DNA from: Roseburia sp.
Lineage (GTDB): Bacteria > Bacillota > Clostridia > Lachnospirales > Lachnospiraceae
Direction of reading: 5' to 3'
Assembly (NCBI GenBank): GCA_017626625.1
Contig: JAGAIK010000626.1
Span: forward strand, 1 to 11,850
DNA: 11,850 nt
In this document: piece after piece, positions 1 to 11,850 of the stretch
Numbering within the stretch: the stretch's first letter is position 1
Layout: each line of letters begins with the position of its first letter
Notes under the pieces: model-generated
Told to the model about the DNA's origin: nothing
Seen by the model: only the letters and a program-made list of their open reading frames with translations
The model's database searches: none
Program-made: the position numbers and the translations under genes

Positions 1-193
1 ACTCCCTGGGCTTTACTGCCTTGCCGATATGGATATCAATATCCTTCTCTAAGGCGCTTGCCACGCTTAAGGATACAATCAGATTTCCCTCGGAGCGCAG
101 CAGCATCTGTGCCGTTTCTTCATTGACGGCCTCAATGGTGCCGCTTCTGGCTTTCCCCTCCGGCGTAACAATCTCATATTTATAATTTGCCAT
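1..193 (-). CDS. pilC: Type IV pilus inner-membrane platform protein PilC (GspF family), N-terminal fragment cut by window edge
   Basis: Only the first 64 codons are visible; the gene runs off the left edge. The protein begins MANYKYEIVTPEGKARSGTI and continues with an A-Q-x-L-L-R-S-E-G-N segment. This is the usual cytoplasmic opening of GspF/PilC proteins: a Y-x-Y start, a 'G-K-x-x-x-G-x-I' turn, then a helix ending before a hydrophobic strand. In the family, PilC is the polytopic platform on which the PilB and PilT ATPases act to assemble or disassemble the pilus. The ATG at 191-193 is preceded by AGGGAGGAG with 8 bases of spacing, and that ribosome site overlaps the pilT stop codon, so translation is probably coupled. 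Its position directly after pilB and pilT supports the call. An F-component of a type II secretion-like system is the only close alternative, and pilT makes the pilus version more likely. Confidence 0.85.
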   Translation of the reverse strand, partial: MANYKYEIVTPEGKARSGTIEAVNEETAQMLLRSEGNLIVSLSVASALEKDIDIHIGKAVKPRE

Positions 194-208
194 CTAAACG
201 ACTCCTCC

Positions 209-1270
209 CTAAAATAGCTTTTCCTGCATCGCCTGGGAATTCTGCGCATATTCCACTGCGCGCTCCCCGTCAATCCTGTGGCGCAGATACAGTTCAAACA
301 GCGCATCGTCCATGGTCTGCATTCCAAGCTTTTTACTGGTCTGTATCATAGAATCAATCTGATGTGTCTGTCCCTCACGCACCAGGTTCTTGATGGCAGG
401 CGTCCCGTGCATGACCTCAAAAGCCGCCACCCTGGATTTTTTATCCATCGTCGGCAGAAGCTGCTGGGAAATAATACACTCTAGCACCGAAGCTAACTGC
501 ACCCGCACCTGTGTCTGCTGATGGGGTGGAAATACGTCGATGATACGGTCAATGGTGGGCGCCGCCCCGATGGTATGGAGGGTGGAGAACACCAGATGAC
601 CTGTCTCCGCCGCCGTGATGGCAGTGGAAATGGTATCTAAGTCACGCATCTCCCCCACCAGAATAATATCCGGGTCCTCACGGAGCGCTGCCCTTAGGGC
701 ATTGGCATAGGACTTGGTATCAAGCCCGATTTCCCTCTGATTCACAATGGCTTTATCATGTCTGTGGAGGTACTCAATGGGGTCCTCTAAGGTAATAATG
801 TGTACGTTCTGTTCCCGGTTGATGATATCTATCAGTGAGGCGAGGGTGGTGGACTTTCCGCTTCCCGTCGGTCCTGTCAACAGCACCATTCCCCTCTTTT
901 TCTCTGTCAGGCGGACTACCGATGCCGGAATACCCAGGCTTTCCGCCGAAGGAATCTCCGATGCCACAAGACGGAGCACCGCCGCATAAGAGCCTCTCTG
1001 TTTAAAGGCATTGACACGGAAACGTCCCACCTGGGGAAGGGTATAGGCAAAATCCACCTCGCCCCGCTCGTTTATCGCACGCTCCTGGTCCGGACCAAGC
1101 ATGGAGGTTACCAACGTCTTTGCCAGTTCCGGCATCACACGCTCCGCTTCTTCCACCTCCACAAGTGTCCCCTGTATCCTGCATTTCGGACGAATCCCTA
1201 CGGTGATATGAAGGTCGGAAGCCCCTTTCTGTTTCGCATATGTCAAAAGATTTTCTATTGTTGTCTCCAT
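209..1270 (-). CDS. pilT: Type IV pilus retraction ATPase PilT
   Basis: This is a hexameric ATPase that powers pilus disassembly and retraction (twitching) from the cytoplasmic face of the inner membrane complex. Counting from the ATG at 1268-1270 (353 residues), a PAS-like N-terminal domain with the typical 'ASDLHITVG' opening fills about residues 1-115. Next come Walker A GPTGSGKST at 133-141, an Asp box (TLEDPIEYLH) at 160-169, Walker B DIILVGE at 201-207 and a His box (HLVFSTLH) at 225-232. Near the end, AIKNLVRE (292-299) matches the AIRNLxRE signature that separates PilT from PilB. Length is typical. Two ATGs are adjacent (1271-1273 and 1268-1270). The AGGGAG ribosome site lies only 2 bases from the first but 5 from the second, so the second is preferred. 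It follows pilB by a few bases and precedes pilC. Confidence 0.95.
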   Translation of the reverse strand: METTIENLLTYAKQKGASDLHITVGIRPKCRIQGTLVEVEEAERVMPELAKTLVTSMLGPDQERAINERGEVDFAYTLPQVGRFRVNAFKQRGSYAAVLRLVASEIPSAESLGIPASVVRLTEKKRGMVLLTGPTGSGKSTTLASLIDIINREQNVHIITLEDPIEYLHRHDKAIVNQREIGLDTKSYANALRAALREDPDIILVGEMRDLDTISTAITAAETGHLVFSTLHTIGAAPTIDRIIDVFPPHQQTQVRVQLASVLECIISQQLLPTMDKKSRVAAFEVMHGTPAIKNLVREGQTHQIDSMIQTSKKLGMQTMDDALFELYLRHRIDGERAVEYAQNSQAMQEKLF

Positions 1271-1279
1271 CATTTCTCC

Positions 1280-3004
1280 CTACTCTTCGTACGTAATACG
1301 TTTCAATTCGTCCATCGTGGTAATTCCCTCTAAGACATACTGGGTAATTCCCTTTCTAAGCGTTACCATGCCTTCCTCTAAGGCAATCTTCTCTATCACA
1401 TCCGCCGATTCTCCCCGGTTGATGGCACGCTTTAACGTCGGTGTCACAGGCATGACCTCATAGACGCCCTGCCGCCCGAAATACCCGGTTCCGTTGCACT
1501 TTAAGCACTCTCTACGGTTCGCCTGGCGAATCATCACAGGCTCCTCTTTCTCCCCAATCCCTAACAGTTCCTTCTCATACTCGTCCGCTTCCCGCAGGGT
1601 ACTGCACACCGGGCAGGCGCACCGCACCAGACGCTGGGCGATAACTCCCACGACAGAATCTGCTATCAGGTAATTTTCCACACCCATATCTGCCAGACGG
1701 GTAATGGTGCCCGCGGCGCTGTTGGTATGCAGCGTGCTCACCACCAGATGTCCCGTGATAGACGCCTTCACTGCAATCTCCGCCGTCTCCTGGTCACGAA
1801 TTTCCCCAATCATAATGATATCCGGGTCCTGACGCAAAATGGAACGCAGTGCACTGGCAAAATTAAGACCCGCTTTTTCATTCACCTGAACCTGGTTGAT
1901 TCCATCAATATTTGCTTCCACGGGGTCTTCTACAGTTATAATATTCGTACCCTCGTCATTTAATTCGCTAAGAGCGGTATAAAGTGTCGTTGATTTTCCG
2001 CTTCCTGTGGGTCCCGTTACCAGTATCATGCCGTTGGGGTGGCTTAAAATCTTATCAAAACGCTCTAAGGTATCCGGCGTAAAGCCCAGCTCTTTTTTAT
2101 CCTTTGTCAGCCCCTTCTTCTGGGTGAGACGCATTACCACCTTTTCCCCATAAACGGTGGGCAGCAGGGAAACACGGATATCGTATTCCGTCCGATCCAC
2201 AATGGCGGTTGCCCTGCCGTCCTGGGGCTTTCTCTTTTCCGAAATATCCAGTCCGCTGATAATTTTAATTCGGGCAACCATCGCCGGGTGGATGCTGATG
2301 TCATGGAGCATTTCCTGCTCTAGCACGCCGTCCACACGGAAACGGATGCGCAGCTTCGTCTCAAAAGGCTCAATATGGATATCGCTGGCTCTCTTATGTA
2401 CTGCCTGCTCAATAATCTGCCTCACTAACCTTACAATGGGCGCCTGGTCTAAGGTCTTGTCATTTTCCTCCGCCGCTGCACGCTCCTGCCAGGTGCTCTC
2501 CCGCTCTCTGGTAAATTCCTCCGCCACACGCAGCGCCTCCGCATTGCCGTAGTAACGGTCGATGGTTGCCGCCACGTCCTTTTCCGTAGTGACATAAACC
2601 TGCACCTGAAATCCGGTAATCACCGCAATGTCATCCATGGCACGGATGTCTAAGGGGTCGCTCATGGCTAATTTCAGCACTCCGGGATTTTTCTCGGAAA
2701 AGCCAAAGGGGATGGCGCTGTATTTTCTCCACACCGACTCATCCGCTAACTTTATCACCTCGTCCTCAATCCGCACCCTGGATAAATGCGTGCTCTCATA
2801 CCCCAACTGACTGCAGAGTGCATGGACAATCTGGCGGTCTGTGAGATATCCCATGTCAATCAGGACATTTCCCAACTTCTCTCCGCCCTTTTTGCTGTGC
2901 TGCTGCTCTAATGCCTTCTCTATCTCTTCCGGTGAAATGACACCTGCCTCTAACAGCAATTCACCTAACCTTTTTTTTCTGCTGCGGCTTGTGTTTCCTT
3001 CCAT
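1280..3004 (-). CDS. pilB: Type IV pilus extension ATPase PilB (GspE/PilB family) with N-terminal MshEN domain
   Basis: This cytoplasmic hexameric ATPase drives pilus polymerisation through PilC. The protein has 574 residues, as expected. Two tandem MshEN-type motifs open it: RLGELLLEAG at 12-21 and KLGNVLIDMG at 43-52, each followed by a helix. In the family, such motifs bind cyclic di-GMP. The ATPase core has Walker A GPTGSGKST at 331-339, an Asp box (TVEDPVE) at 357-363, Walker B DIIMIGE at 395-401 and a His box (HLVVSTLHT) at 419-427. Two CxxC pairs (C464/C467 and C500/C503) form the zinc-binding C-domain found in PilB/GspE but absent from PilT. The ATG at 3002-3004 has GGGAG seven bases upstream. 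It is the first gene of the pilB-pilT-pilC run. The upstream 160 bases are very A/T-rich, and I see no clear consensus promoter there. Confidence 0.95.
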   Translation of the reverse strand: MEGNTSRSRKKRLGELLLEAGVISPEEIEKALEQQHSKKGGEKLGNVLIDMGYLTDRQIVHALCSQLGYESTHLSRVRIEDEVIKLADESVWRKYSAIPFGFSEKNPGVLKLAMSDPLDIRAMDDIAVITGFQVQVYVTTEKDVAATIDRYYGNAEALRVAEEFTRERESTWQERAAAEENDKTLDQAPIVRLVRQIIEQAVHKRASDIHIEPFETKLRIRFRVDGVLEQEMLHDISIHPAMVARIKIISGLDISEKRKPQDGRATAIVDRTEYDIRVSLLPTVYGEKVVMRLTQKKGLTKDKKELGFTPDTLERFDKILSHPNGMILVTGPTGSGKSTTLYTALSELNDEGTNIITVEDPVEANIDGINQVQVNEKAGLNFASALRSILRQDPDIIMIGEIRDQETAEIAVKASITGHLVVSTLHTNSAAGTITRLADMGVENYLIADSVVGVIAQRLVRCACPVCSTLREADEYEKELLGIGEKEEPVMIRQANRRECLKCNGTGYFGRQGVYEVMPVTPTLKRAINRGESADVIEKIALEEGMVTLRKGITQYVLEGITTMDELKRITYEE

Positions 3005-3163
3005 AGTTTCACTCCCAAATATCGTACGATTTTCCTATTTCTCTAACAACCCTACCATATTAGTCATTGATTTTCAACTACTTTTTATACAAAATTAACC
3101 TTAAAACTATAGAATTTTATCTATTTTTTCAATTTTCGTATATTTTCGTCAATAACTGTCTAT
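3005..3163 (-). other. A/T-rich leader upstream of pilB, promoter presumed but not identifiable
   Basis: This spacer lies between the ABC transporter terminator and pilB and must hold the pilus operon promoter if that terminator works. It is rich in A and T runs, with several partial matches to -35 and -10 boxes (for example TTGAAA on the minus strand near 3070-3075), none with a convincing partner. I looked for the conserved cores of cyclic di-GMP riboswitches, which precede pilus genes in some clostridia, and did not find them. Confidence 0.3.
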
Positions 3164-3209
3164 AAAGAAAGACTACAAAATAAGTCGCCTGATTTTATAG
3201 TCTTTCTTT
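3164..3209 (-). terminator. Intrinsic terminator after the ABC transporter gene
   Basis: Arms at 3164-3181 and 3192-3209 pair over 17 base pairs with one mismatch, around a 10-base loop. Read on the minus strand, the 3' arm ends in TTTCTTT rather than a pure T run. It begins 10 bases after the ABC gene stop and separates that gene from the pilus operon. The strong stem with a weak tail suggests termination that may be partial. Confidence 0.7.
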
Positions 3210-3219
3210 CCCATATTTT

Positions 3220-5025
3220 TTAACTCTGTATCATTTTCATGCGGTAAAATTCACCCTTCAACTCCATCAGCTCCTCAAAGGTACCATATTCCACGCAGTG
3301 TCCGTCGGCAATCACCGCTATTTTATCCGCATCCCGGATAGTGGAAAGACGGTGCGCCACAATAAAGGTGGTTCTGCCCTCGGTAAGATTTCCCAATGCC
3401 TCCTGTATCAGTTTCTCGGAAATGCTGTCTAACGCCGAAGTCGCCTCGTCAAGGACAATCACCTTTGGTTTCCTTATCAGGGCGCGGGCGATGGCAATCC
3501 GCTGTCTCTGCCCGCCGGAAAGCTTGCCCCCGTGTTCGCCCACCAGAGTGTCTAAGCCCTGGGGCAGACTTTCAATTAAATCCGTCAGGTTCGCCGCCCG
3601 GATTACCTCGTTTAATTCCTCCTCCGTCACATTTTCACTGCCATAAGTAATATTTTCCCGGATGCTGCCGGAGAACAATATGGAGGTCTGGGGCACCACC
3701 GCTAAATGCTTCCGGTAGGTCCGCAAATCAATCTCTCTCATATCGTTGCCGTCTAAGAGTACCCTTCCGCCCTCAGACAGGTGAAAGCCGATGACCAGAT
3801 TCAGCACCGTGGATTTTCCTGCGCCGGACTCTCCCACCAGGGCGATGGTCTCCCCCTGTTTTACGTGGAGATTCAGATGGTTTAACACCTGCACGTCATT
3901 GTTTTTATAATGGAAGGAAACGTCCTCAAAATCAAAATTTCCCACCACTTCCGTCAGTTGCTTTTTCCCGTCATTTTCCTCCACTTCCTCCGAGAGCAGA
4001 ACTTCCCCGATAGAATTCACCGATTCGATGCCCTTGGTGATGGTGGGAAGCAGGGTCACAATGGCGGAAACCTGGTTTACCACTGTGGCAAAATAGCTCT
4101 GGTACAGCGTAATATCTCCCGCCATAATTCTTCCCTTCAACGCCAGATACCCGGTAAAGGCAAGGCAGATGACCTGAAAGACCTGGAAAATCGCCCAGCC
4201 CACCGAGCCAAACAGCGCCTGCACCAAATCCAGCTTATAGCCCTTTTCCGCCACCGCAAAGAGCTGCCCGCTCATCTTCTGGACTTCCTCGTCCTCCAGG
4301 GCGTGGGCTCTGGTGACCGGCACTAACTCCACCATCTCCATCACCCGTGCCGAGGTTTCCTCCATCTCCTTACGGAACTCATTGTTGCGGGTCCGCATGG
4401 CAGTACGGAAGGACACCATGGTAATCGCTGCCACCGGGGCGGTCAGCAGGAAAAATACAAAAACGATTTTACTCTTTGACGCTGTCACCACCAGTGCCAC
4501 GCCGATATTTAAGGCAATATTTAAAATGCTTAAAAACATCTGGGTGGACAGCGTTTCCACCGCCTCCACGTCACGCATGATTTTAGACTGCAGCCGCCCG
4601 GACTGGGTTTCCACGTGGTAAGAAATGGAAAGCTGCTGTAATTTCCGTATCAATGCCTTCCGAAGCCCCGTCTCCGCATAGCGGGTGGCAAGACTTTTAT
4701 AGGAGGTGTACAGGTAATTCGACGGAATGTTGATGCCAATCAGCGCAATTTCCAAGACAGAATAGAACACAATGTTCCGCACGGTATCGGGATTTCCGAT
4801 GGTGACATCATTGATGATATTTGCTGTGATAATGGGCAGTACCCAGACACAGGCATGTTTGACAAAGAAACAGACCACCGCCATGACAAATTTGTGATAA
4901 TTTCCTTTATATAAGGAAATTAAAATCCGCATGGGATGCCCCTGATGCCTCCGATAGCACTCAATAAACCAGCTTTCTGTGTCTATCTGCTTTTTCGGAG
5001 CTGTTTTTTTCTCAAAACTATTCAT
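3220..5025 (-). CDS. ABC exporter, fused transmembrane-ATPase half-transporter (ABCB/MsbA-like)
   Basis: This 601-residue half-transporter probably works as a homodimer in the cytoplasmic membrane. Residues about 45-335 carry hydrophobic segments (near 48-68, 85-105, 165-182, 186-205, 275-297 and 312-330) matching the six-helix exporter fold. The ATPase domain starts near 362: Walker A GESGAGKST at 398-406, Q-loop Q446, signature LSGGQ at 502-506, Walker B VIVLDE at 522-527, and switch histidine H558 in AHRLST. All catalytic residues are present. No C39 peptidase domain precedes the membrane domain, so it is not a peptide-processing bacteriocin exporter. Substrate cannot be read from sequence; drugs, lipids or peptides are all possible. 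The start has AGAGG ten bases upstream. It stands alone, with its own terminator and a candidate promoter, and is not part of the pilus operon. Confidence 0.9.
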   Translation of the reverse strand: MNSFEKKTAPKKQIDTESWFIECYRRHQGHPMRILISLYKGNYHKFVMAVVCFFVKHACVWVLPIITANIINDVTIGNPDTVRNIVFYSVLEIALIGINIPSNYLYTSYKSLATRYAETGLRKALIRKLQQLSISYHVETQSGRLQSKIMRDVEAVETLSTQMFLSILNIALNIGVALVVTASKSKIVFVFFLLTAPVAAITMVSFRTAMRTRNNEFRKEMEETSARVMEMVELVPVTRAHALEDEEVQKMSGQLFAVAEKGYKLDLVQALFGSVGWAIFQVFQVICLAFTGYLALKGRIMAGDITLYQSYFATVVNQVSAIVTLLPTITKGIESVNSIGEVLLSEEVEENDGKKQLTEVVGNFDFEDVSFHYKNNDVQVLNHLNLHVKQGETIALVGESGAGKSTVLNLVIGFHLSEGGRVLLDGNDMREIDLRTYRKHLAVVPQTSILFSGSIRENITYGSENVTEEELNEVIRAANLTDLIESLPQGLDTLVGEHGGKLSGGQRQRIAIARALIRKPKVIVLDEATSALDSISEKLIQEALGNLTEGRTTFIVAHRLSTIRDADKIAVIADGHCVEYGTFEELMELKGEFYRMKMIQS

Positions 5026-5124
5026 GATTCCAAAACCTCTATTCTTCTATCACCTTTTTTGCCGCCGTCCGCTCTCTGCACTTATTCCGGCAGCTACTTC
5101 TCTTACCGTGCAGACAACAGCCTT
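5026..5124 (-). promoter_or_regulatory. Structured 5' leader of the ABC transporter gene (candidate)
   Basis: If transcription starts just downstream of the extended -10 at 5131-5139, the mRNA has a leader of about 100 bases. On the minus strand it contains TCTGCAC and, further on, GTGCAGA, a 7-base inverted repeat. An interleaved pair, GCTGCCG and CGGCGGC, can also form (one G-U), followed by a run of six A. The pairs interlock, so they are either alternatives or a pseudoknot. It matches no leader class I recognise. The reading is tentative. Confidence 0.25.
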
Positions 5125-5130
5125 TTCTTC

Positions 5131-5139
5131 ATATTAGCA
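5131..5139 (-). promoter_or_regulatory. Extended -10 promoter element for the ABC transporter gene
   Basis: Read on the minus strand, the site is TGCTAATAT, a TGn extension plus TAATAT, one base from the TATAAT consensus. No good -35 lies 17 bases upstream (CTGTTT), which is common for extended -10 promoters. It is the best promoter candidate between the upstream terminator and the ABC gene. Confidence 0.45.
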
Positions 5140-5158
5140 CAACTCAAAGAAAAAAACA

Positions 5159-5254
5159 GCCCTCTTTTCGCAACGGAAATGAATGCCAAAATGGGCAAGC
5201 CCTCTTCCGTTTCCCAGGAATCAAAAAAAGAGAGCATTCTCATGCCCTCTTCCG
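5159..5254. repeat. Three spaced copies of GCCCTCTT(T)TCCG-like motif, with a hairpin
   Basis: GCCCTCTTCCG occurs at 5199-5209 and 5244-5254, and a variant GCCCTCTTTTCG at 5159-5170, so the copies start 40 and 45 bases apart. The right copy forms one arm of the terminator at 5223-5250. The middle one lies within an inverted repeat (AACGGAA 5172-5178 with TTCCGTT 5205-5211) that also holds a small GGGC/GCCC hairpin. The left copy is followed, on the minus strand, by seven T. This may be a tandem or back-up terminator array, or spaced protein sites just upstream of the ABC promoter. Confidence 0.4.
5223..5250 (-). terminator. Intrinsic terminator of the DUF2085 operon
   Basis: Read on the minus strand, AGAGGGCAT and ATGCTCTCT pair over nine bases with one G-U, enclosing a four-base loop (GAGA), and seven T follow. 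It begins 19 bases after the DUF2085 stop. This is a textbook Rho-independent terminator. Confidence 0.9.
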
Positions 5255-5269
5255 AATTACGCTGTGTAT

Positions 5270-5677
5270 TCAGGTAATACTTTTCATCAATCTGTCTATC
5301 CTCTCCGGCTCTGCTACAAAAAGCTTCAGAAAACTTCCTGCAATCCAGACGCAGGTCCGGTGGAAATAAATGAGAAAGAAGATAAACGCCACGCCGAATA
5401 CCATTCCCGTTATAAGTCTTCTGATATTTCCGCTCTCATAGGGCGTCAACAACTGTAAAAAGCCGTCAAACACCATCGGAACCATCAACAGAAGCACATA
5501 CCGAAACTCCGGTACTCCCCCAAAAATTGCAATGGGTATTCCCGCTATCATGCCGATAAGCTCCCCGGTACACCGGGCACAGATGGGAAACTGCTTTCCA
5601 CGGAAGAAAAAGGAACGGTCCGCTCTTGCATGGCAGCCGAACATAATCTGTAAGAATCTTCCGGCTTTGGCGCCAAT
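5270..5677 (-). CDS. DUF2085 family membrane protein, apparent ATT start
   Basis: The conserved DUF2085 signature is present: a C-H pair followed by 'RADRSFF' and then 'F-P-I-C-A-R-C-T-G'. Counting from the chosen start, C15, H16, C33 and C36 could form a metal site. Three or four hydrophobic segments follow (about residues 40-57, 61-77 and 92-125). The family's function is unknown to me. No ATG, GTG or TTG with a ribosome site exists upstream of the signature. GGAGG at 5686-5690 lies 8 bases before the ATT codon at 5675-5677, giving a protein of 135 residues. A TTG at 5717-5719 would give 149 residues but has no ribosome site and overlaps the upstream gene by 41 bases. The ATG at 5642-5644 is badly spaced and too close to the signature. 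The gene starts one base after the stop of the 78-residue gene, so coupled translation is likely. Confidence 0.8.
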   Translation of the reverse strand: MGAKAGRFLQIMFGCHARADRSFFFRGKQFPICARCTGELIGMIAGIPIAIFGGVPEFRYVLLLMVPMVFDGFLQLLTPYESGNIRRLITGMVFGVAFIFFLIYFHRTCVWIAGSFLKLFVAEPERIDRLMKSIT

Positions 5678-5678
5678 C

Positions 5679-5915
5679 TTAGAAACCTCCAAGATATGCA
5701 GCCCCCAGTCCGAATACAATCATAATGATATAATAAATTACACATACAACTACACCTACGATTGCACCGATACCTGCAGCTTTTGCTGTTTTGGGTTTGT
5801 TATCTTTCCATACTAAGAAAAGAATTAAACCAACTAATGGGATACAGCAGCCTAACAGTCCCCATAAGAATCCACCCTTGTCATTTGTGTTTGTCATGTT
5901 TGTATTGTTATCCAT
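5679..5915 (-). CDS. Small two-helix membrane protein, function unknown
   Basis: This 78-residue protein has an Asn/Thr-rich hydrophilic start (MDNNTNMTNTND), then a hydrophobic segment at about 16-35 (G-F-L-W-G-L-L-G-C-C-I-P-L-V-G) ending in L-V-W-K-D. A basic loop 'KPKTAKAAG' follows, then a second hydrophobic segment at about 46-74. That layout is seen in many small Firmicute membrane proteins that sometimes carry a zinc ribbon in front; here there is none. The ATG has AGGAG nine bases upstream. It is the first gene of a two-gene operon with the DUF2085 gene, behind a clear promoter. The function is unknown. Confidence 0.8.
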   Translation of the reverse strand: MDNNTNMTNTNDKGGFLWGLLGCCIPLVGLILFLVWKDNKPKTAKAAGIGAIVGVVVCVIYYIIMIVFGLGAAYLGGF

Positions 5916-5983
5916 TTCACTTCACTCCTGTTTTTTTATAAATTGTTTATAAAGTTTATATTTTTTTAACGCGCTAAATTGGT

Positions 5984-5998
5984 ATTAGTGTAACTAAT
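5984..5998. promoter_or_regulatory. Operator-like palindrome over the -10 box
   Basis: ATTAGTGTAACTAAT is a perfect 6-base inverted repeat with a 3-base centre. It covers the whole -10 hexamer of the promoter for the small membrane-protein operon, where a bound dimeric repressor would block RNA polymerase. The regulator is not identifiable here. Confidence 0.45.
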
Positions 5999-6015
5999 TT
6001 CCTAGTTTTTGTCAA
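5987..6015 (-). promoter_or_regulatory. SigA-type promoter for the small membrane protein / DUF2085 operon
   Basis: On the minus strand, a perfect -35 TTGACA (6010-6015) is followed after exactly 17 bases by TACACT (5987-5992), which matches TATAAT at four of six positions. The predicted transcript begins near 5980 and has a leader of about 65 bases before the ATG at 5915. Confidence 0.8.
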
Positions 6016-6066
6016 CAACTTTTTTGTTTGATTGTCAAAATTGTTAATTTTTTTCTTTGGCGCACG

Positions 6067-6106
6067 AAAAAAAAAGACGGCGCCTCCCTTCGGAGAGACA
6101 CCGTCT
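6067..6106 (-). terminator. Intrinsic terminator downstream of the cotJC-like gene
   Basis: Read on the minus strand, AGACGGTG and CGCCGTCT form an 8-base stem (one G-U), topped by a C/T-rich against G/A-rich stretch that can extend it. A run of nine T follows. It lies about 57 bases past the cotJC stop and isolates that gene from the next operon. A separate 7-base inverted repeat (CAGAAAC/GTTTCTG, 6158-6179) spans the cotJC stop codon itself but has no T run. Confidence 0.9.
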
Positions 6107-6163
6107 CTTTTCGTTGTGTGCCATATGATATTGCAGCTTGTAAACAGCCGGAAGTGACAGAAA

Positions 6164-6595
6164 CTAATTTTGGTTTCTGCCGCAGCCCGGGTCAAATTCC
6201 GGATTGCACATATAGAAATTTTTGCTGTCAAGCTCATCCTGAACCATGCGCAGACCTTCGCCGAAACGCTGGAAATGCACGACTTCACGCTGACGCAGGA
6301 AACGGATGGGGTCACAGACCTCCGGATCCTTGACTAAGCGCAGGATATTGTCGTAGGTACTTCTTGCTTTCTGCTCTGCTGCCATGTCCTCCACCAAATC
6401 GGTGATGATGTCGCCCTTCACCTGGAACTCACAGGAATTGAAAGGAATGCCTCCCGCCGCCTGGGGCCAGATACCGACGGTGTGGTCCACATAGTAGGGT
6501 GCGAAACCTGCCGCCTCTAATTCCTCGGCGCTTAAGCCTCTGGTGAGCTGGCGGACGATGGTGGCGACCATTTCCATGTGGGCTAATTCATTCAA
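6164..6595 (-). pseudogene. cotJC: CotJC-like spore-coat manganese catalase, 5'-truncated
   Basis: Manganese catalases of the CotJC type are four-helix di-manganese proteins of about 190-210 residues, placed in the inner spore coat. Here only about 143 C-terminal residues are encoded. They begin inside the second metal helix (N-E-L-A-H-M-E-M, E3 and H6), then show Y-Y-V-D-H at 34-38, E-D-M-A-A-E-Q-K-A-R at 69-78 and R-E-V-V-H-F-Q-R-F at 103-111. The first helix with its glutamate ligand is missing, so the product should not form the active site. The only start codon near the break is TTG at 6593-6595, without a ribosome site. The frame is open upstream only to a TAG near 6649, through sequence unlike the family. 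It ends in an unusual Cys-containing tail. The break coincides with the mobile-element edge. Whether it is dead or reassembled by excision is unknown. Confidence 0.85.
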
Positions 6596-6621
6596 ACATC
6601 TGTGATAGCAATGATTTGTTT
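6590..6621. other. Junction between cotJC and mobile element (candidate attachment site)
   Basis: Clear cotJC homology begins, on the minus strand, at GAATTAGCCCAC (reading E-L-A-H). The 30 or so bases before it are A/T-rich, and the polyvalent gene's stop lies at 6622-6624. A weak inverted repeat (AAACA 6594-6598, TGTTT 6617-6621) is present. One frame across this stretch reads K-Q-I-I-A-I-T-D-V, which resembles the family's 'T-D-I-G' turn before E-L-A-H. The exact crossover therefore cannot be fixed. Confidence 0.4.
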
Positions 6622-9516
6622 CTAGCGTATTTTCCCTTTCTTCCTAACCAGAATCTGCTCTGCCCCTTCCAGCCCAGCAGCATTTTTTAATTCTTCCTGA
6701 TATAAATCAGAAAATCCTTCCGGAACCTGCTCTGTCACCGTAGCCTGCCGCCAGTTATTTTCTTCTTTATCCGTTGTTCTCAAGAGTCCTAACTTCTTGC
6801 ATTCCGCAAACACTTGGTCAAAACATTTATTAATTCTGTCCCGTTCCTTTCCTTCCGGAAACAGCTTCACCATCCCTGGTTCTTCCTTCGAGAAATCCCA
6901 CGTCATTGCCCTTTCTGAATGTCCGCATAGATAATCAGAACGCCAGGGAAGCTTATCATGCACATAACAGGCAAATGCTCTTGCAAACATCTCTACATTA
7001 CTATGCCAGTAACCGTTATCTTCCTTGCTATGCAGACTATCCGCTTTCACAGAATTTTTATAAAAATCCGTCTCTACCTCCAATTTTTCATGCGCCCCCC
7101 GGAAATCACATTCAAAGCTGTAGATAGCATAGTAAAGCTGATTCCGGATATCCTTAGTAATCATATGTCCTGTCACAGATTTTCTAAAATTGCTTAATTC
7201 TTCTATCTTTTCAGTTATCCATTTTACCCTCCGCTCACTGTCCTGCTCTTCTTTTTCGACATCAATACTTCTTACCTGTGCTGTCGCCTTAATCTCTTCC
7301 TTTAAATGCGCCCATTCTTCTTTCTCGTTATCATTTAATTTTCCTTCCGGAAGTATTTGCTCCAATAACTCATCTAAGCGTTTTCCATCACGTTCCAGCC
7401 TTTTGGCGCTGCGCACCTGTGCTTCTTCTTCCGTTTCAGGACGATATTTCATAGTTTCCAACAACTGTTTCATAGAAGCAGGCACTCTTTTATCCCTGAG
7501 ATTTTCTGTCATAAATCCGTTTAGCCCAAGCCGCTTCCCCATGATATCATCAAAAGCATGTCCCCATTCATGGGCCAGGCTTCCCGCTCCACGCATTTTC
7601 GTAAGATTAATGACTTCTCTTGACGGTTCATAGTGTGCCACCGCATTTCCATGCCCCCTGGAACCAAAAGCAATCGACAACCTGTTCCCAAGTGAAACAT
7701 CAGAAATATCCATATCTAATGCCACTGCCAAATCGCTGAACGCATCATATCCCATATTTAAGGATGCCTGACGATCAGTCTCATTCATCCAGTTGCCAAA
7801 TTCTCCGCCGGAAAAGCCAAAGGTTTCTATATACATATTCCCATTTGCTGGTTTTTCTGCTGTAATTCCATTGGCAGGACCATCTCTTACAATGTGTTCT
7901 AACTGCTCCGGAACAAATTTCTTTTTTCTTGTCCCGCCATATTCTTTGTGCAATTCCTTTGCTTTTTCATATGCTTCCTGCTCGCTTTCGATTCCCTCTG
8001 CAAGAATACGCCTTCCTTTTAAAACCACATACGATTTTTTCTGTGACAGATAACGGACAGAAAATCCCTTTGGCAGCCTTTCCTCCGCCGGAACCCCAAA
8101 TTGCTCTTTTTCAATCCTATTGTCCATTATTTGAAAATCTGTCCGCCTTATCTGCATGGTCTTCAACATTTTATTGGTGACTGCAAATCCTTTTTCGGTT
8201 CTCGCAACCATATAAGGTGTAGTGCGTTCTACATATACACCAGAATTTACAAATTCATCAAATACATGCAGAATATCGGTATCACTTTTGACATTTAGAA
8301 GCAGTTTCTTTACATCCTTTATCAGAGATATGTAATCCTCCTGACATTTTCTCCTCAATTCCTGGGTAGTATCCATATAAGAATATGTCACCTTTGCCGG
8401 CAGCGATTTTCTTACCTCTTTGATGAAATAAGCCACTCTCACCGGCGTTCCCTCCCGTATCATCTGCAGGTAATCAGGCTTTTCCCAGATGTTATCTTTT
8501 GTAATATATTTCGCAGCCTCTGCCTCATTCATCTCAGCAATATCGGATATATCTAACCCTCTTTCCTTCCAGAGGTCTTTTCTGGCTCCTCCGATTTTCT
8601 TTCCAAAATCTTCAATTTTTCCTTTATCCGCTGTCCCCGGTGCTTTTGATTGTGTTTCTTCCTTATTTATTACTGCTTTAGAAATAATCTCTCCCTGGCG
8701 AACCAGATTATTAAAATGCTCCACCTGCTCTTTCAAACTATCTGCAACCGCAAAAGCATCTCCCAGTAGTTTTTTCTTTTCTGTAATTTTCATGGTTCTG
8801 ACATCACGCTGCAGCAATTCCTGAAAATGGATTTGCGAAGTATCCAATCCATAACTTTTGCATAATAAATATTGCGCAATATCAGCCTGCAGCCTTACCT
8901 GCATAGATGTCCATTTTTCTTTTCGTTCCAACAAAGCCATTGACAGCAACCTGATTACCTGCTCCACCTGCTTTGACATTTCTCCGGTCTGGGTAAGAAA
9001 AACTGTATTATCCTTATAATATACTTCTCCGGTTTTCTCCGAAGAATTTTCACCAAGAAAACTTATCTTTAATTTATTTTCCGCTGCCGTTTCATATATT
9101 GCAGAAAACAGGCTGTCATAATCATTTTCTTTCGCACTCTCTGATTTCCCCTGAGAAAGCATTTCATTCTTTTTTTCCTCATCAGCATTTGTCTGATTCA
9201 AATCAAAGATATATCTCAGGGTAAATGCGGTATTCCCATTTTCACCTTTTACCGGAGCCAGAATTGCCATTCCCTGTTCCCCACGCCGTATGTACAATCC
9301 GTGTTCCTTCCAATATTGAAAACTTCCTGCCAACTGCGCCTCCGGACGCTGTGCCTTCATCATGGCCGTATTATGGACAGAATACCCCGGAACCCGAAAA
9401 CGAAAATCAAGGTAATCCCTCATCCCTTTCTCATCATCAAAAGTCTGTCGGATTACTTCCTCTGCCTGAGCAAACAAGCGAACGGTCTTTTCTTCTTTAT
9501 CCTGCCAGCGGCTCAT
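6622..9516 (-). CDS. Polyvalent mobile-element protein: ArdC-like N-terminus plus LPD1-type HEWGH metallopeptidase-like domain
   Basis: The protein has 964 residues. Residues about 8-92 match the ArdC-like ssDNA-binding domain (V-P-G-Y-S-V-H-N-T, then F-Q-Y-W-K-E-H-G and R-R-G-E-Q-G-M-A-I-L-A-P). Residues 305-350 hold an 'IGGARKDLW' segment that recurs in such element proteins. Residues 568-870 resemble the large polyvalent-protein domain LPD1, with zinc site H649-E-W-G-H653 and a likely third ligand E842 in VEMFARAF. Polyvalent proteins are thought to enter recipient cells with conjugative or phage DNA, to protect it or modify the host; ArdC blocks restriction in a plasmid system. Cytoplasmic, with no signal peptide or membrane helix. 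GGGGG lies 6 bases before the ATG, inside the 3' end of the 75-residue gene. No terminator follows the stop, so transcripts may run into cotJC. Confidence 0.8.
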   Translation of the reverse strand: MSRWQDKEEKTVRLFAQAEEVIRQTFDDEKGMRDYLDFRFRVPGYSVHNTAMMKAQRPEAQLAGSFQYWKEHGLYIRRGEQGMAILAPVKGENGNTAFTLRYIFDLNQTNADEEKKNEMLSQGKSESAKENDYDSLFSAIYETAAENKLKISFLGENSSEKTGEVYYKDNTVFLTQTGEMSKQVEQVIRLLSMALLERKEKWTSMQVRLQADIAQYLLCKSYGLDTSQIHFQELLQRDVRTMKITEKKKLLGDAFAVADSLKEQVEHFNNLVRQGEIISKAVINKEETQSKAPGTADKGKIEDFGKKIGGARKDLWKERGLDISDIAEMNEAEAAKYITKDNIWEKPDYLQMIREGTPVRVAYFIKEVRKSLPAKVTYSYMDTTQELRRKCQEDYISLIKDVKKLLLNVKSDTDILHVFDEFVNSGVYVERTTPYMVARTEKGFAVTNKMLKTMQIRRTDFQIMDNRIEKEQFGVPAEERLPKGFSVRYLSQKKSYVVLKGRRILAEGIESEQEAYEKAKELHKEYGGTRKKKFVPEQLEHIVRDGPANGITAEKPANGNMYIETFGFSGGEFGNWMNETDRQASLNMGYDAFSDLAVALDMDISDVSLGNRLSIAFGSRGHGNAVAHYEPSREVINLTKMRGAGSLAHEWGHAFDDIMGKRLGLNGFMTENLRDKRVPASMKQLLETMKYRPETEEEAQVRSAKRLERDGKRLDELLEQILPEGKLNDNEKEEWAHLKEEIKATAQVRSIDVEKEEQDSERRVKWITEKIEELSNFRKSVTGHMITKDIRNQLYYAIYSFECDFRGAHEKLEVETDFYKNSVKADSLHSKEDNGYWHSNVEMFARAFACYVHDKLPWRSDYLCGHSERAMTWDFSKEEPGMVKLFPEGKERDRINKCFDQVFAECKKLGLLRTTDKEENNWRQATVTEQVPEGFSDLYQEELKNAAGLEGAEQILVRKKGKIR

Positions 9517-9724
9517 ATCCTTCCCCCTTCTCTAATTCCATCGTTTCATCATCATAAGCTACAATTACCGGGGTATCTTCCTGTCCATTTTTCTTTTCTG
9601 CCAGCACTTGTCGAAGTTCTTCTACCTGCTCTTCTGTCCCAAAAACTGTCACGAGTTCTTCTTCCCAGAAAGGCTTTACCAATATATGATTCTCATCTAA
9701 TATTTCATATGCAAATCCGTACAT
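9497..9724 (-). CDS. Small acidic protein of unknown function in element operon
   Basis: This 75-residue protein is strongly acidic (E-E-E-L, T-E-E-Q-V-E-E-L, D-D-E-T-M-E-L-E). It appears to be strand-rich with one central helix (about 29-46), and has no signal peptide or membrane segment. I do not recognise the family. The ATG has GGAG six bases upstream, and a second GGAGG overlaps the DUF6674 stop. It lies nine bases after that gene and overlaps the polyvalent gene by 20 bases, so the three are transcribed together and the last two are translationally coupled. The acidic character would suit a DNA-mimic or a partner of the polyvalent protein, but that is speculation. Confidence 0.7.
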   Translation of the reverse strand: MYGFAYEILDENHILVKPFWEEELVTVFGTEEQVEELRQVLAEKKNGQEDTPVIVAYDDETMELEKGEGYEPLAG

Positions 9725-9733
9725 GCTTCTCTC

Positions 9734-10492
9734 CTACCTCCTTTTTCCCTTTTTAAATGGCACCACATTTTCATCATCCTTCATCTGCTTTGTATTTTGC
9801 AGGTCCACATCTTCTGAGAGCTTATTGCATTTTTCCAATGCGCTTTCTGTAAAATTCAGCATTTTTTCCAAATGTTCTTTTTGCTCCAAATAAGGTTTCT
9901 TTACAATACTCATTTTAGAAACCTTTTCCTCCAGATACTCCTTCTTCTCTTTTCCTGTAATGGCACGCATCGCATTGGCAGCCTCTTGTCCTGCTTTTCT
10001 CATGCCATTTTCAAAGGCATCGATTCTCTCAATCGTATTTTCTACTTTCTTAATCTGCAATTTTGTCTTATCATGGAATTTCTCCAGTTTCTCACCAATT
10101 TTAAAGAACTCGGAAATACGATTTAATGCCTGTTTTCCTTTCTGTTTCACTGCGATTACAAGCTCTTTTGCTTTTTCGTTCATTTCTGCCTTGATTTCTG
10201 TTAGCTGCTTCTTCATATCATGGTAGTGCTCTTTCATCTCCCCTGTAGTTTCCTTTAAATACTGAGTTAGGGATTCGGGTTCGTATTCCTGGTTCATTTC
10301 TTCTAACTGGCTTTTTAATGATGAAATCTCCTGCAGCGCAGTATCCAGCTTTTCCTCTAACTGCTTCGTATATACTGCCATCGTCAACACATTGACAGCC
10401 TGCGCTTGTTTCTGACTTTGTTCTAACAACTTTACAAGTTCTAAAACTGCCTTCATTTCATCACTTTTCTTCTTTTTTACTGTTGCACCCAT
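9734..10492 (-). CDS. DUF6674 family coiled-coil protein
   Basis: The protein has 252 residues, highly charged and almost all helical. An N-terminal 'V-L-E-L-V-K-L-L-E-Q-S' motif is followed by a predicted coiled coil (about 45-70). The family's core segment covers about 95-190, including V-K-Q-K-G-K-Q-A-L-N-R-I-S-E-F-F and M-R-A-I-T-G-K. The tail is basic (F-K-K-G-K-R-R). It has the layout of DUF6674 proteins, which I know from clostridial conjugative elements and whose role is unknown. AGGAGG lies seven bases before the ATG, the best ribosome site in the window. It is the first gene of the three-gene element operon, behind a promoter at 10541-10569 and an operator-like palindrome. It has no membrane segment. 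Confidence 0.75.
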   Translation of the reverse strand: MGATVKKKKSDEMKAVLELVKLLEQSQKQAQAVNVLTMAVYTKQLEEKLDTALQEISSLKSQLEEMNQEYEPESLTQYLKETTGEMKEHYHDMKKQLTEIKAEMNEKAKELVIAVKQKGKQALNRISEFFKIGEKLEKFHDKTKLQIKKVENTIERIDAFENGMRKAGQEAANAMRAITGKEKKEYLEEKVSKMSIVKKPYLEQKEHLEKMLNFTESALEKCNKLSEDVDLQNTKQMKDDENVVPFKKGKRR

Positions 10493-10520
10493 AAATTTTC
10501 CTCCTGATAACTATTGTTTT

Positions 10521-10533
10521 TGCCATATTGGCA
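10521..10533. promoter_or_regulatory. Operator-like palindrome in leader of the DUF6674 operon
   Basis: TGCCATATTGGCA is a perfect 5-base inverted repeat around a 3-base centre. It lies just downstream of the predicted start of transcription and upstream of the DUF6674 ribosome site. A dimeric regulator bound here would act as a roadblock or cover the start region. Its arms contain G and C in otherwise very A/T-rich sequence. Confidence 0.4.
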
Positions 10534-10540
10534 CCTATTT

Positions 10541-10569
10541 ATTATAGAAAACTATGTTTCACGTTTCGA
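10541..10569 (-). promoter_or_regulatory. Promoter of the DUF6674 / 75-residue / polyvalent operon
   Basis: On the minus strand, TCGAAA (10564-10569, four of six to TTGACA) lies exactly 17 bases before a perfect TATAAT (10541-10546). The leader to the ATG at 10492 is about 42 bases. It diverges from the rpn promoter about 70 bases away. Confidence 0.7.
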
Positions 10570-10641
10570 CGGAATAAAAGCAATGTTTTTTTACTTTTAT
10601 TTTCTTTTAGGAAAATGTCCCCTTCTATACTATATTTTTCT

Positions 10642-10669
10642 TTGCTAATAGCCCAAAATTTGCTATAAT
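10642..10669 (+). promoter_or_regulatory. Promoter of the Rpn-like nuclease gene
   Basis: The site has TTGCTA (10642-10647), a 16-base spacer and a perfect TATAAT (10664-10669) preceded by TGC, forming an extended -10. Transcription should start near 10676, about 27 bases before the start codon. Confidence 0.75.
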
Positions 10670-10702
10670 ACAATTAAAGAGAACGAAAGGGGAGCATTAT
10701 CC

Positions 10703-11665
10703 TTGGCTGACAACACTATTTTTGATGACGTATTCCGCACCATGCTGGAAAAGATGCCGCAGTTGATTATCCCGGTTATTAATGAAGTTTTTCATACCTC
10801 ATATTCGGAAGATACGCCAATTCAGCAATACCGCAACGAACATCATACAAAATCCGGAGAAATTATCACTGACTCTTATTTAGGCATTGAGGATATGCTT
10901 TATCATATCGAATGTCAGAGCACCTCAGACAGCCATATGTGCATCCGCATGATTGAATATGACTTCGCCATCGCATTAGAACACGCAGAAAAAAATGATT
11001 CCTTCTTTGAGTTAAACTTTCCAAGCTCTTGTGTCCTGTATCTTCGGCAGAATGCTTCTCTTCCTGAAGAGCTTCAGGTAAAGGTAAATCTTCCTGATAA
11101 ATCGTCTTTCTTTTACAAAATACCGACTGTCAAAGTCCAGGAATATACGAAGGATGATATTTTTAAGAAACGGCTTCTCTTTTTCCTTCCTTTTTATATC
11201 ATGCGATATGAAAAGAAATTAAAAGATATCGGCGAAGACCCGGCAAAACTTACACAGTTTGTATCGGAATATAAAGATATCCGTATTCAGCTACGGAGAG
11301 AGCTTCCCAGAGATGAAGAGACAGATTTATACACCCGTCTGATTGAGTTGATTGGACGCATCGCAGATTATATTCTAAAAACAGAAAGCATCTTAAAGGA
11401 AAGGATTGGTGATATTATGGGTGGTAAAGTTTTAGAACTCGAAACGGATAAAATTCTGGAACATGGCATTGAGCAGGGCATTGAACAAACTACTGCCACT
11501 TTCGTGACACGTATGTTAAATCGGAATATGTCCATAGAGGATATTATTCTCTATTCAGGCTGCAGCCGTGATGATGTTTTACGGATAAAAGAGCAGGCGG
11601 AAACACAGCATACTCTTTCCTCCTCTGAGAATACTTTAAAGCGCAAGCCTTCTAAAAGCAGGTAA
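10703..11665 (+). CDS. Rpn / PD-(D/E)XK nuclease family protein (transposase-like), TTG start
   Basis: This 320-residue protein belongs to the Rpn-like PD-(D/E)XK group, often labelled 'nuclease family transposase' and present in many copies in Lachnospiraceae. The N-terminal helix reads F-D-D-V-F-R-T-M-L-E-K-M-P. The catalytic core has D57 (I-I-T-D-S-Y-L) and E70-x-Q72 (H-I-E-C-Q-S), the E-x-Q variant typical of Rpn proteins. A helical region follows, and the tail 'GIEQGIEQ...MLNRNMSIEDI' is characteristic. The start is TTG, with GGGGAG eight bases upstream; no in-frame ATG, GTG or other TTG is better. It is the only plus-strand gene, with its own promoter and terminator, so it behaves as an independent cassette. 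E. coli RpnA cuts DNA and raises RecA-independent recombination. Activity here is inferred. No inverted repeats mark it as an insertion sequence. Confidence 0.85.
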   Translation: MADNTIFDDVFRTMLEKMPQLIIPVINEVFHTSYSEDTPIQQYRNEHHTKSGEIITDSYLGIEDMLYHIECQSTSDSHMCIRMIEYDFAIALEHAEKNDSFFELNFPSSCVLYLRQNASLPEELQVKVNLPDKSSFFYKIPTVKVQEYTKDDIFKKRLLFFLPFYIMRYEKKLKDIGEDPAKLTQFVSEYKDIRIQLRRELPRDEETDLYTRLIELIGRIADYILKTESILKERIGDIMGGKVLELETDKILEHGIEQGIEQTTATFVTRMLNRNMSIEDIILYSGCSRDDVLRIKEQAETQHTLSSSENTLKRKPSKSR

Positions 11666-11702
11666 TACTACCCCTGAAAAATACGCAGTAATCATAATTT
11701 GA

Positions 11703-11744
11703 AAAAAGATGGATTCACAGTTCATTCTGCAAATCCATCTTTTT
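11703..11744. terminator. Bidirectional intrinsic terminator between rpn and the next gene
   Basis: A perfect 13-base stem (AAAAAGATGGATT at 11703-11715 with its complement at 11732-11744) encloses a 16-base loop. It has T runs on the 3' side of both strands. It can end transcription of the rpn gene and of the convergent minus-strand gene at the right edge. Confidence 0.9.
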
Positions 11745-11757
11745 CTTTTATCTGCAT

Positions 11758-11850
11758 TTAATTTGTTCGATTCGGTGCCATGAATGTATCATAGAACAAC
11801 TGCAAAGCACCTTCTTCTACTGAATTTCCCACGCCATGGTCCTGAATGAA
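11758..11850 (-). CDS. C-terminal end of an unidentified gene, cut by window edge
   Basis: The last 30 codons of a minus-strand frame end at TAA (11758-11760), 14 bases before the bidirectional terminator. The visible tail includes G-V-G-N-S-V-E-E-G-A-L-Q-L-F-Y-D and ends M-A-P-N-R-T-N. I do not recognise it. The gene is supported by the open frame running to the edge, the well-placed terminator and the orientation shared with the element operon. Confidence is limited because only 90 coding bases are visible. Confidence 0.5.
   Translation of the reverse strand, partial: FIQDHGVGNSVEEGALQLFYDTFMAPNRTN

Follow-up and report, generated by a model that had tools for sequence, protein, structure and literature searches.

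The sporulation gene cotJC is split by a serine-recombinase element in Roseburia sp. and at four recurrent points across the Lachnospiraceae, probably to be rebuilt by excision

The stretch of DNA analyzed here (the window; all 11,850 nucleotides of contig JAGAIK010000626.1) belongs to a Roseburia sp. MAG of 723 contigs and 81% completeness (G000), and carries on its minus strand the 3′ part of cotJC, codons 65–205 of a 205-codon joined product, open to the natural stop (6164..6589). This part gave a Mn_catalase match (PF05067, 5e-21, profile search) and lies in a minus-strand frame at 6164–6595, in which the first native cotJC residue is Glu65 (6587–6589), while 6590–6621 is element DNA. An earlier note on this sequence had described a 143-residue cotJC frame that begins at the element edge, and the start does lie at that edge, but the first two residues of the frame (TTG AAT) are element-derived and do not belong to the gene. 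Its further descriptions were borne out: the frame is without internal stop or frameshift, the cut sits in the E-L-A-H codon block, the DNA at the gene break is A/T-rich (G+C of 0.54 in the cotJC part, 0.49 across 1–6589, and 0.40 across 6590–11850), and the terminator is preserved as a strong hairpin after cotJC (6069..6112, minus strand; 20-bp stem, −29.3 kcal/mol, z −5.4, by folding), despite which a simple consensus terminator scan listed none. On the chromosomal right flank of the cotJ locus are a 78-aa protein and a DUF2085 protein (5270..5915, minus strand), which lie beside cotJABC in an intact congener (G019). Farther out on this chromosomal side, 209–3004 encodes two secretion ATPases of type II/IV (PilT-like and PilB-like; T2SSE).

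From 6590 to the right end of the contig (6590..11850), the window consists of the visible part of the intervening element, recognized by low G+C, an attR arm, and mobile-type genes. These encode a 964-aa protein with an LPD1 domain (9e-19) and a weak ArdC N-terminal domain (2.8e-4, below cut-off) at 6622..9516 on the minus strand, a protein with a DUF6674 profile match (9734..10492, minus strand), and, on the plus strand, an element or cargo gene resembling Rpn-family nucleases (10703..11665; TIGR01784, 3.7e-7, below cut-off). Across the ~9 kb of element visible on this contig and on the one bearing its other end, LPD1, DUF6674, M48, HTH, and Rpn-like genes are present and no virion gene was named; the element may be phage-derived or conjugative. 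A 56-bp element stretch (11694–11749) has a 93%-identical counterpart on contig L138 of another MAG, S26_Bin3.

Searching the MAG with the intact CotJC of a congener (G035) revealed exactly two CotJC pieces, residues 64–202 in the window and residues 1–71 on a separate contig of the assembly, C334 (5′ part at G000:C334:852-1064). On C334, cotJA, cotJB, and cotJC codons 1–66 are followed by the gene of a large serine recombinase (LSR) and then by those of an M48 peptidase and of a regulator of the Cro/CI type. CotJA and CotJB adjoin cotJC, and the LSR (523 aa; Resolvase, Recombinase, and Zn-ribbon domains) is on the opposite strand, at most 10 bases from the stop of the 5′ fragment. The 5′ fragment that the earlier note expected at the other end of the element is thus present, in the needed orientation and beside a recombinase gene. 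Both junction sequences share an 8-bp attachment core, GAATTAGC (6582..6589, minus strand), and an element arm at 6596..6616 (minus strand), a predicted recombinase half-site, forms an inverted repeat with the C334-end arm, their 20/21 match scoring highest of all pairs compared. When the flanks are joined at the GAATTAGC core, 205 stop-free codons result, reading ...TDIGTEELAHMEMV..., and cotJC would be the attB of the element. In G019, whose cotJC is intact, the genes flanking C334 (cotJA, cotJB, and a 96-aa gene, presumably TrkA-C-like) and those flanking the window (the 78-aa and DUF2085 proteins) all lie within 2.4 kb, so that the two contigs represent the two sides of one interrupted locus. 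The intact cotJABC block of G019 (L174 9126–11446) is inverted relative to its flanking genes when compared with G000. Together, both halves, the recombinase gene, the core, and the in-frame join uphold the proposal of the earlier note that cotJC is split by a skin-like element, and the rejoining that it had offered as a test, an out-of-frame or incomplete product being the adverse outcome, gives a complete gene here and an in-frame one in 51 of 52 same-contig pairs elsewhere. Neither a joined form nor a circle turned up in the species of the window, and the assembly does not connect C334 to the window.

The window is one of many such cases. A cotJC match was found in 243 of 397 genomes from the family, and at least 75 of these (74 re-searched genomes plus G000) have a split gene, a lower bound since pieces were mapped by a second search in 110 of the 243 and 132 cotJC genomes fell outside it. 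A split was called from match edges where a 5′ piece ended and a 3′ piece started at the same point, edges being paired per genome and not confirmed as one copy in multi-copy genomes; both edges were found in 74 of the 110 re-searched genomes, one edge (uncounted) in 21, and neither in 15. Full-length cotJC is absent from 62 of the 74 split genomes and present as well in the other 12, and ten of the 74 have two split points. The split points fall at only four places, which the earlier note had not foreseen: residues 30–33 (GGPD; site 1), 62–67 (GTEELA; site 2), 134–136 (AAE; site 3), and 172–176 (RFGEA; site 4), in 27, 33, 13, and 11 genomes, respectively (84 sites in 74 genomes). All four coincide with, or fall a few codons away from, a Glu or His residue aligned to the metal site of Mn catalase 1jku, as defined by the residues that we take to be its metal ligands. 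Two control genes showed no such pattern. The recR gene (196 aa) scored above cut-off in 387 of the 397 genomes, each with a best E-value of 1.9e-65 or better, and no element-split copy was found, as judged from coordinates for ~155 matches and from match number and E-value for the remainder; two genomes had a second match, both full length. The spoIVA gene (492 aa) was found in 73 of the 74 split genomes, 71 of them with one full-length match, and, G164 aside (two pieces at contig starts), none of the 73 has an element-split spoIVA, G156 having three pieces within 1.4 kb. Because the same codon blocks of cotJC are split in many genomes, set against the results for recR and spoIVA, chance can be ruled out. 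One contig of G119 (L096; G119:C68 13500–18670) carries two cotJC 3′ parts 3.1 kb apart, while the only 5′ part of that genome sits on a different contig.

The architecture is clearest in 52 pairs, from 48 other genomes, in which both cotJC pieces lie on one contig and strand and were joined via the best shared core. All but one (G369) give an in-frame product; shared cores range from 2 to 14 bases, with only 2 bases at the chosen join in five pairs. The pieces are 1.6 to 117 kb apart, and an LSR frame lies inside all 52 elements, its 3′ end toward the nearer junction in 44 and within 100 bases of it in 40, while the arm pairs of 30/52 exceed the 99th percentile of mismatched pairs. In four genomes (G332, G321, G408, and G223) a single contig carries cotJC as three pieces in their proper order, and all pieces of twice-split genes are still open. 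The smallest elements are close to an LSR alone: that of G260 (2.15 kb) holds the LSR and short upstream frames, and that of G315 (2.4 kb) the LSR plus a single short frame in opposite orientation. Short LSR frames, which may have decayed, occur in G409, G369, G214, G378, G379, and G181. One cotJC element (G301; L115 and L114) contains three long frames for LSRs, of 438, 501, and 508 aa, and looks composite. In G026 (L038 4260–6203), ~330 bp separate the end of the LSR from the cotJC junction, and attachment-arm-like sequence follows the LSR, which suggests that this element could be nested or tandem.

Recombinase phylogeny follows the site used. A tree of 62 LSRs, two viral rows of which were labeled site 2 from their own attP, accounts for the site labels with four changes, the minimum possible. 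The LSRs of sites 1, 3, and 4 each form a single clade at 100/100, and those of site 2 form two groups that differ in their cores; support at the deepest forks is weak (67/36), and we therefore count four to five lineages. Conversely, among 18 named-genome loci found by similarity to the window's LSR alone, 16 have a cotJC piece (absent at L152 and L155), including loci of Eubacterium ramulus ATCC 29099, whose cotJC is divided between two contigs and rejoins to 202 codons with no other copy seen, and of Falcatimonas sp. MSJ-15, whose two pieces are ~38.8 kb from each other on one contig. Further, of five IMG/VR contigs with related LSRs, three have beside the LSR an uninterrupted attP, its inverted arms enclosing the site-2 core of cotJC, and the remaining two have no such attP. 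The three attP-bearing contigs represent two distinct phages (L156 and L158 share sequence) and have no cotJC match; L157 is a phage with tape-measure, tail-fibre, endolysin, and helicase-loader genes. Relatives of the G000 element hence also occur as phage DNA, free or replicating, with an attP that fits cotJC. The XisF model matched the window's LSR weakly (4.5e-20), far under its cut-off.

A scan for a conserved small gene upstream of the LSR, as a possible directionality factor, in the 52 same-contig elements (a set that leaves out the window's element) yielded one candidate: in 7/8 site-4 elements the immediate upstream neighbour of the LSR is a 59–73-residue protein, always of the same family. 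For the window's element, no directionality factor was found. The directionality factors reported for known elements have 53 and 72 residues (PMC10747680), and the site-4 protein, being of similar size, is therefore a candidate directionality factor; it had no match in PHROG. Besides this group of seven, the scan gave two groups of three at site 2 and two pairs. No clear sporulation promoter was found in 54 LSR upstream regions judged by eye; by the same means, that of G000 looks vegetative (TTTCAC-N17-TACAAT) and that of a site-3 element (G323) has a sigma-E-like look. As SP-beta and the C. difficile skin element are described as having a constitutive recombinase and a sporulation-controlled directionality factor (PMC5595907), a missing sporulation promoter at the LSR is not decisive. 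A TATTGTATC-containing stretch occurs upstream of LSRs of different site clades (L058, L104, L111, and L112), is palindromic in several, and is perhaps a shared repressor operator.

The split genes bear the marks of selection. We compared 39 joined genes (38 same-contig single splits plus G000, excluding multi-split genomes, a piece cut by a contig end, G369, and G225) with 40 intact genes hand-picked from the family's cotJC matches, a choice that favours relatives of the query. Nearest-neighbour dN/dS among the joined genes had a median of 0.08 and a maximum of 0.18, over the 23/39 with dS < 3, though some of the pairs are reciprocal and dS is saturated in many of them. The Glu/His columns E35, E65, H68, E136, E166, and H169 are invariant in 39/39 split and 40/40 intact genes and are present in the joined G000 protein, and terminal branch lengths are alike in the two groups (medians 0.166 and 0.188; p 0.45). 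Dead fragments would hardly be so well conserved, though recent insertions would give the same picture and the purifying selection may predate insertion.

On this evidence we think it likely that an element sits in G000 cotJC at the Glu-Glu-Leu-Ala-His codons and that recombination at the core rebuilds the gene, most likely in the sporulating mother cell. As established for SP-beta, skin, and gin, the recombinase, together with a directionality factor probably produced in sporulation, would recombine attL with attR in that cell, the one in which cotJC is used, and restore the gene, and because the mother cell dies the element would escape germ-line loss. Metal-site motifs, as the most conserved DNA of cotJC, would offer each recombinase lineage a stable target across species. 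We infer the timing of excision, the mother cell as its setting, and the directionality factor from sequence comparison and from the known elements discussed below. A broader reading, which we favor by a narrower margin of belief, is that cotJC of Lachnospiraceae exists in pieces through the work of at least four, probably five, recombinase lineages acting at four metal-site points, that some genes need two excisions, and that the smallest units, of ~2.2 kb and made up of a serine recombinase with a candidate directionality factor of 60 residues, would amount to DNA-level introns removed only in the doomed mother cell.

The strongest competing account is that cotJC offers a safe landing pad, a gene silent in growth and nearly dispensable, so that elements would excise only on induction and the spore would be made without CotJC. 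It has some appeal, as C. difficile cotJC homologues are described as partly redundant (PMC11222575), the 132 other sampled cotJC genomes are without a demonstrated split, several LSR upstream regions look vegetative- or repressor-like, and phage forms occur free. We nevertheless regard it as unlikely: another full-length copy exists in 12 of the 74 split genomes, but the other 62 lack one, and yet split copies keep the six metal-site residues; split copies evolve no faster than intact ones; all pieces stay open even in twice-split genes; and elements reduced to about the LSR alone still flank an intact frame.

Simple disruption, by which cotJC would be dead and its fragments decaying, had seemed equally compatible with the window to the earlier note, and the element does interrupt the frame, G369 fails to rejoin, and some LSR frames are short. 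That parity has been lost to the purifying selection, the conserved metal-site residues, and the twice-split genes; with both halves open and joining in frame, 51/52 pairs rejoining, and dN/dS low, we consider disruption improbable. Least credible of all is an assembly or binning artefact, with the window contig misjoined or the two contigs drawn from different organisms: G000 is a fragmented MAG and the 3′ piece of the related S26_Bin3 (G456) has another site-2 junction type and may be mis-binned (that pair was therefore left unused), but in G000 the arms match at both ends, both halves are 86–88% identical to the same congener protein, the neighbourhood is common to G019, and the same architecture occurs within single contigs of 48 other genomes, including the single-contig assemblies G341, G378, G450, and G330, so that mis-binning of the G000 contigs was set aside on synteny and arms.

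cotJC is a new target gene for, and a multi-site form of, the known skin-type elements; the earlier note knew of no described cotJC example, and we likewise recognized no report of an element inside cotJC in the literature searched, a scope outside which most subscription papers and preprints lie. Some nif genes carry several elements. The nifD, fdxN, and hupL elements of cyanobacterial heterocysts (PMC4191935) similarly rebuild genes by developmental excision in a specialized cell type, with the weak XisF match as a further likeness, though in other organisms and other genes. For sporulation, the sources consulted name programmed excision in sigK, spsM, spoVFB, spoVR, gerE, and yabG, and place cotJC of B. 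subtilis under sigma-E (PMC3416734). The skin element in sigK of B. subtilis and C. difficile is likewise a serine-recombinase element that splits a mother-cell sporulation gene (PMC5025042), whereas sigK encodes a regulator and cotJC a coat protein. SP-beta in spsM of Bacillus subtilis is a phage with a serine recombinase that interrupts a mother-cell spore-envelope gene, which its excision restores in frame (PMC4191935); cotJC differs as another gene with four recurrent sites, many elements, and some copies split twice. The account of gin in gerE of Bacillus cereus (PMC5595907) shows that such an element can do without phage genes and describes a 9-bp core, inverted arms, and a needed RDF; gin is a single 28.6-kb element with three recombinases, in contrast to cotJC elements of 1.6 to 117 kb. 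In Clostridium botulinum, the prophage-like yin interrupts another clostridial spore gene, yabG, and has a putative RDF of 72 residues, but concerns a single strain and gene and is called unique to that strain (PMC10747680). Phage phi027 of C. difficile was rejected as a cotJC-splitting case, as it adjoins a cotJC homologue and does not lie inside it (PMC11222575).

Together, these results place one coat gene split in at least 75 of 243 cotJC-bearing genomes of a major gut family beside the handful of genes previously reported, and they supply many recombinases with mapped attachment sites, in clades that follow the site used. Splitting cotJC would explain low-cost phage residence in a conserved gene. 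Should excision in the mother cell prove true, gut spore formers would commonly rearrange their DNA in development, and cotJC would offer a natural assay for this.
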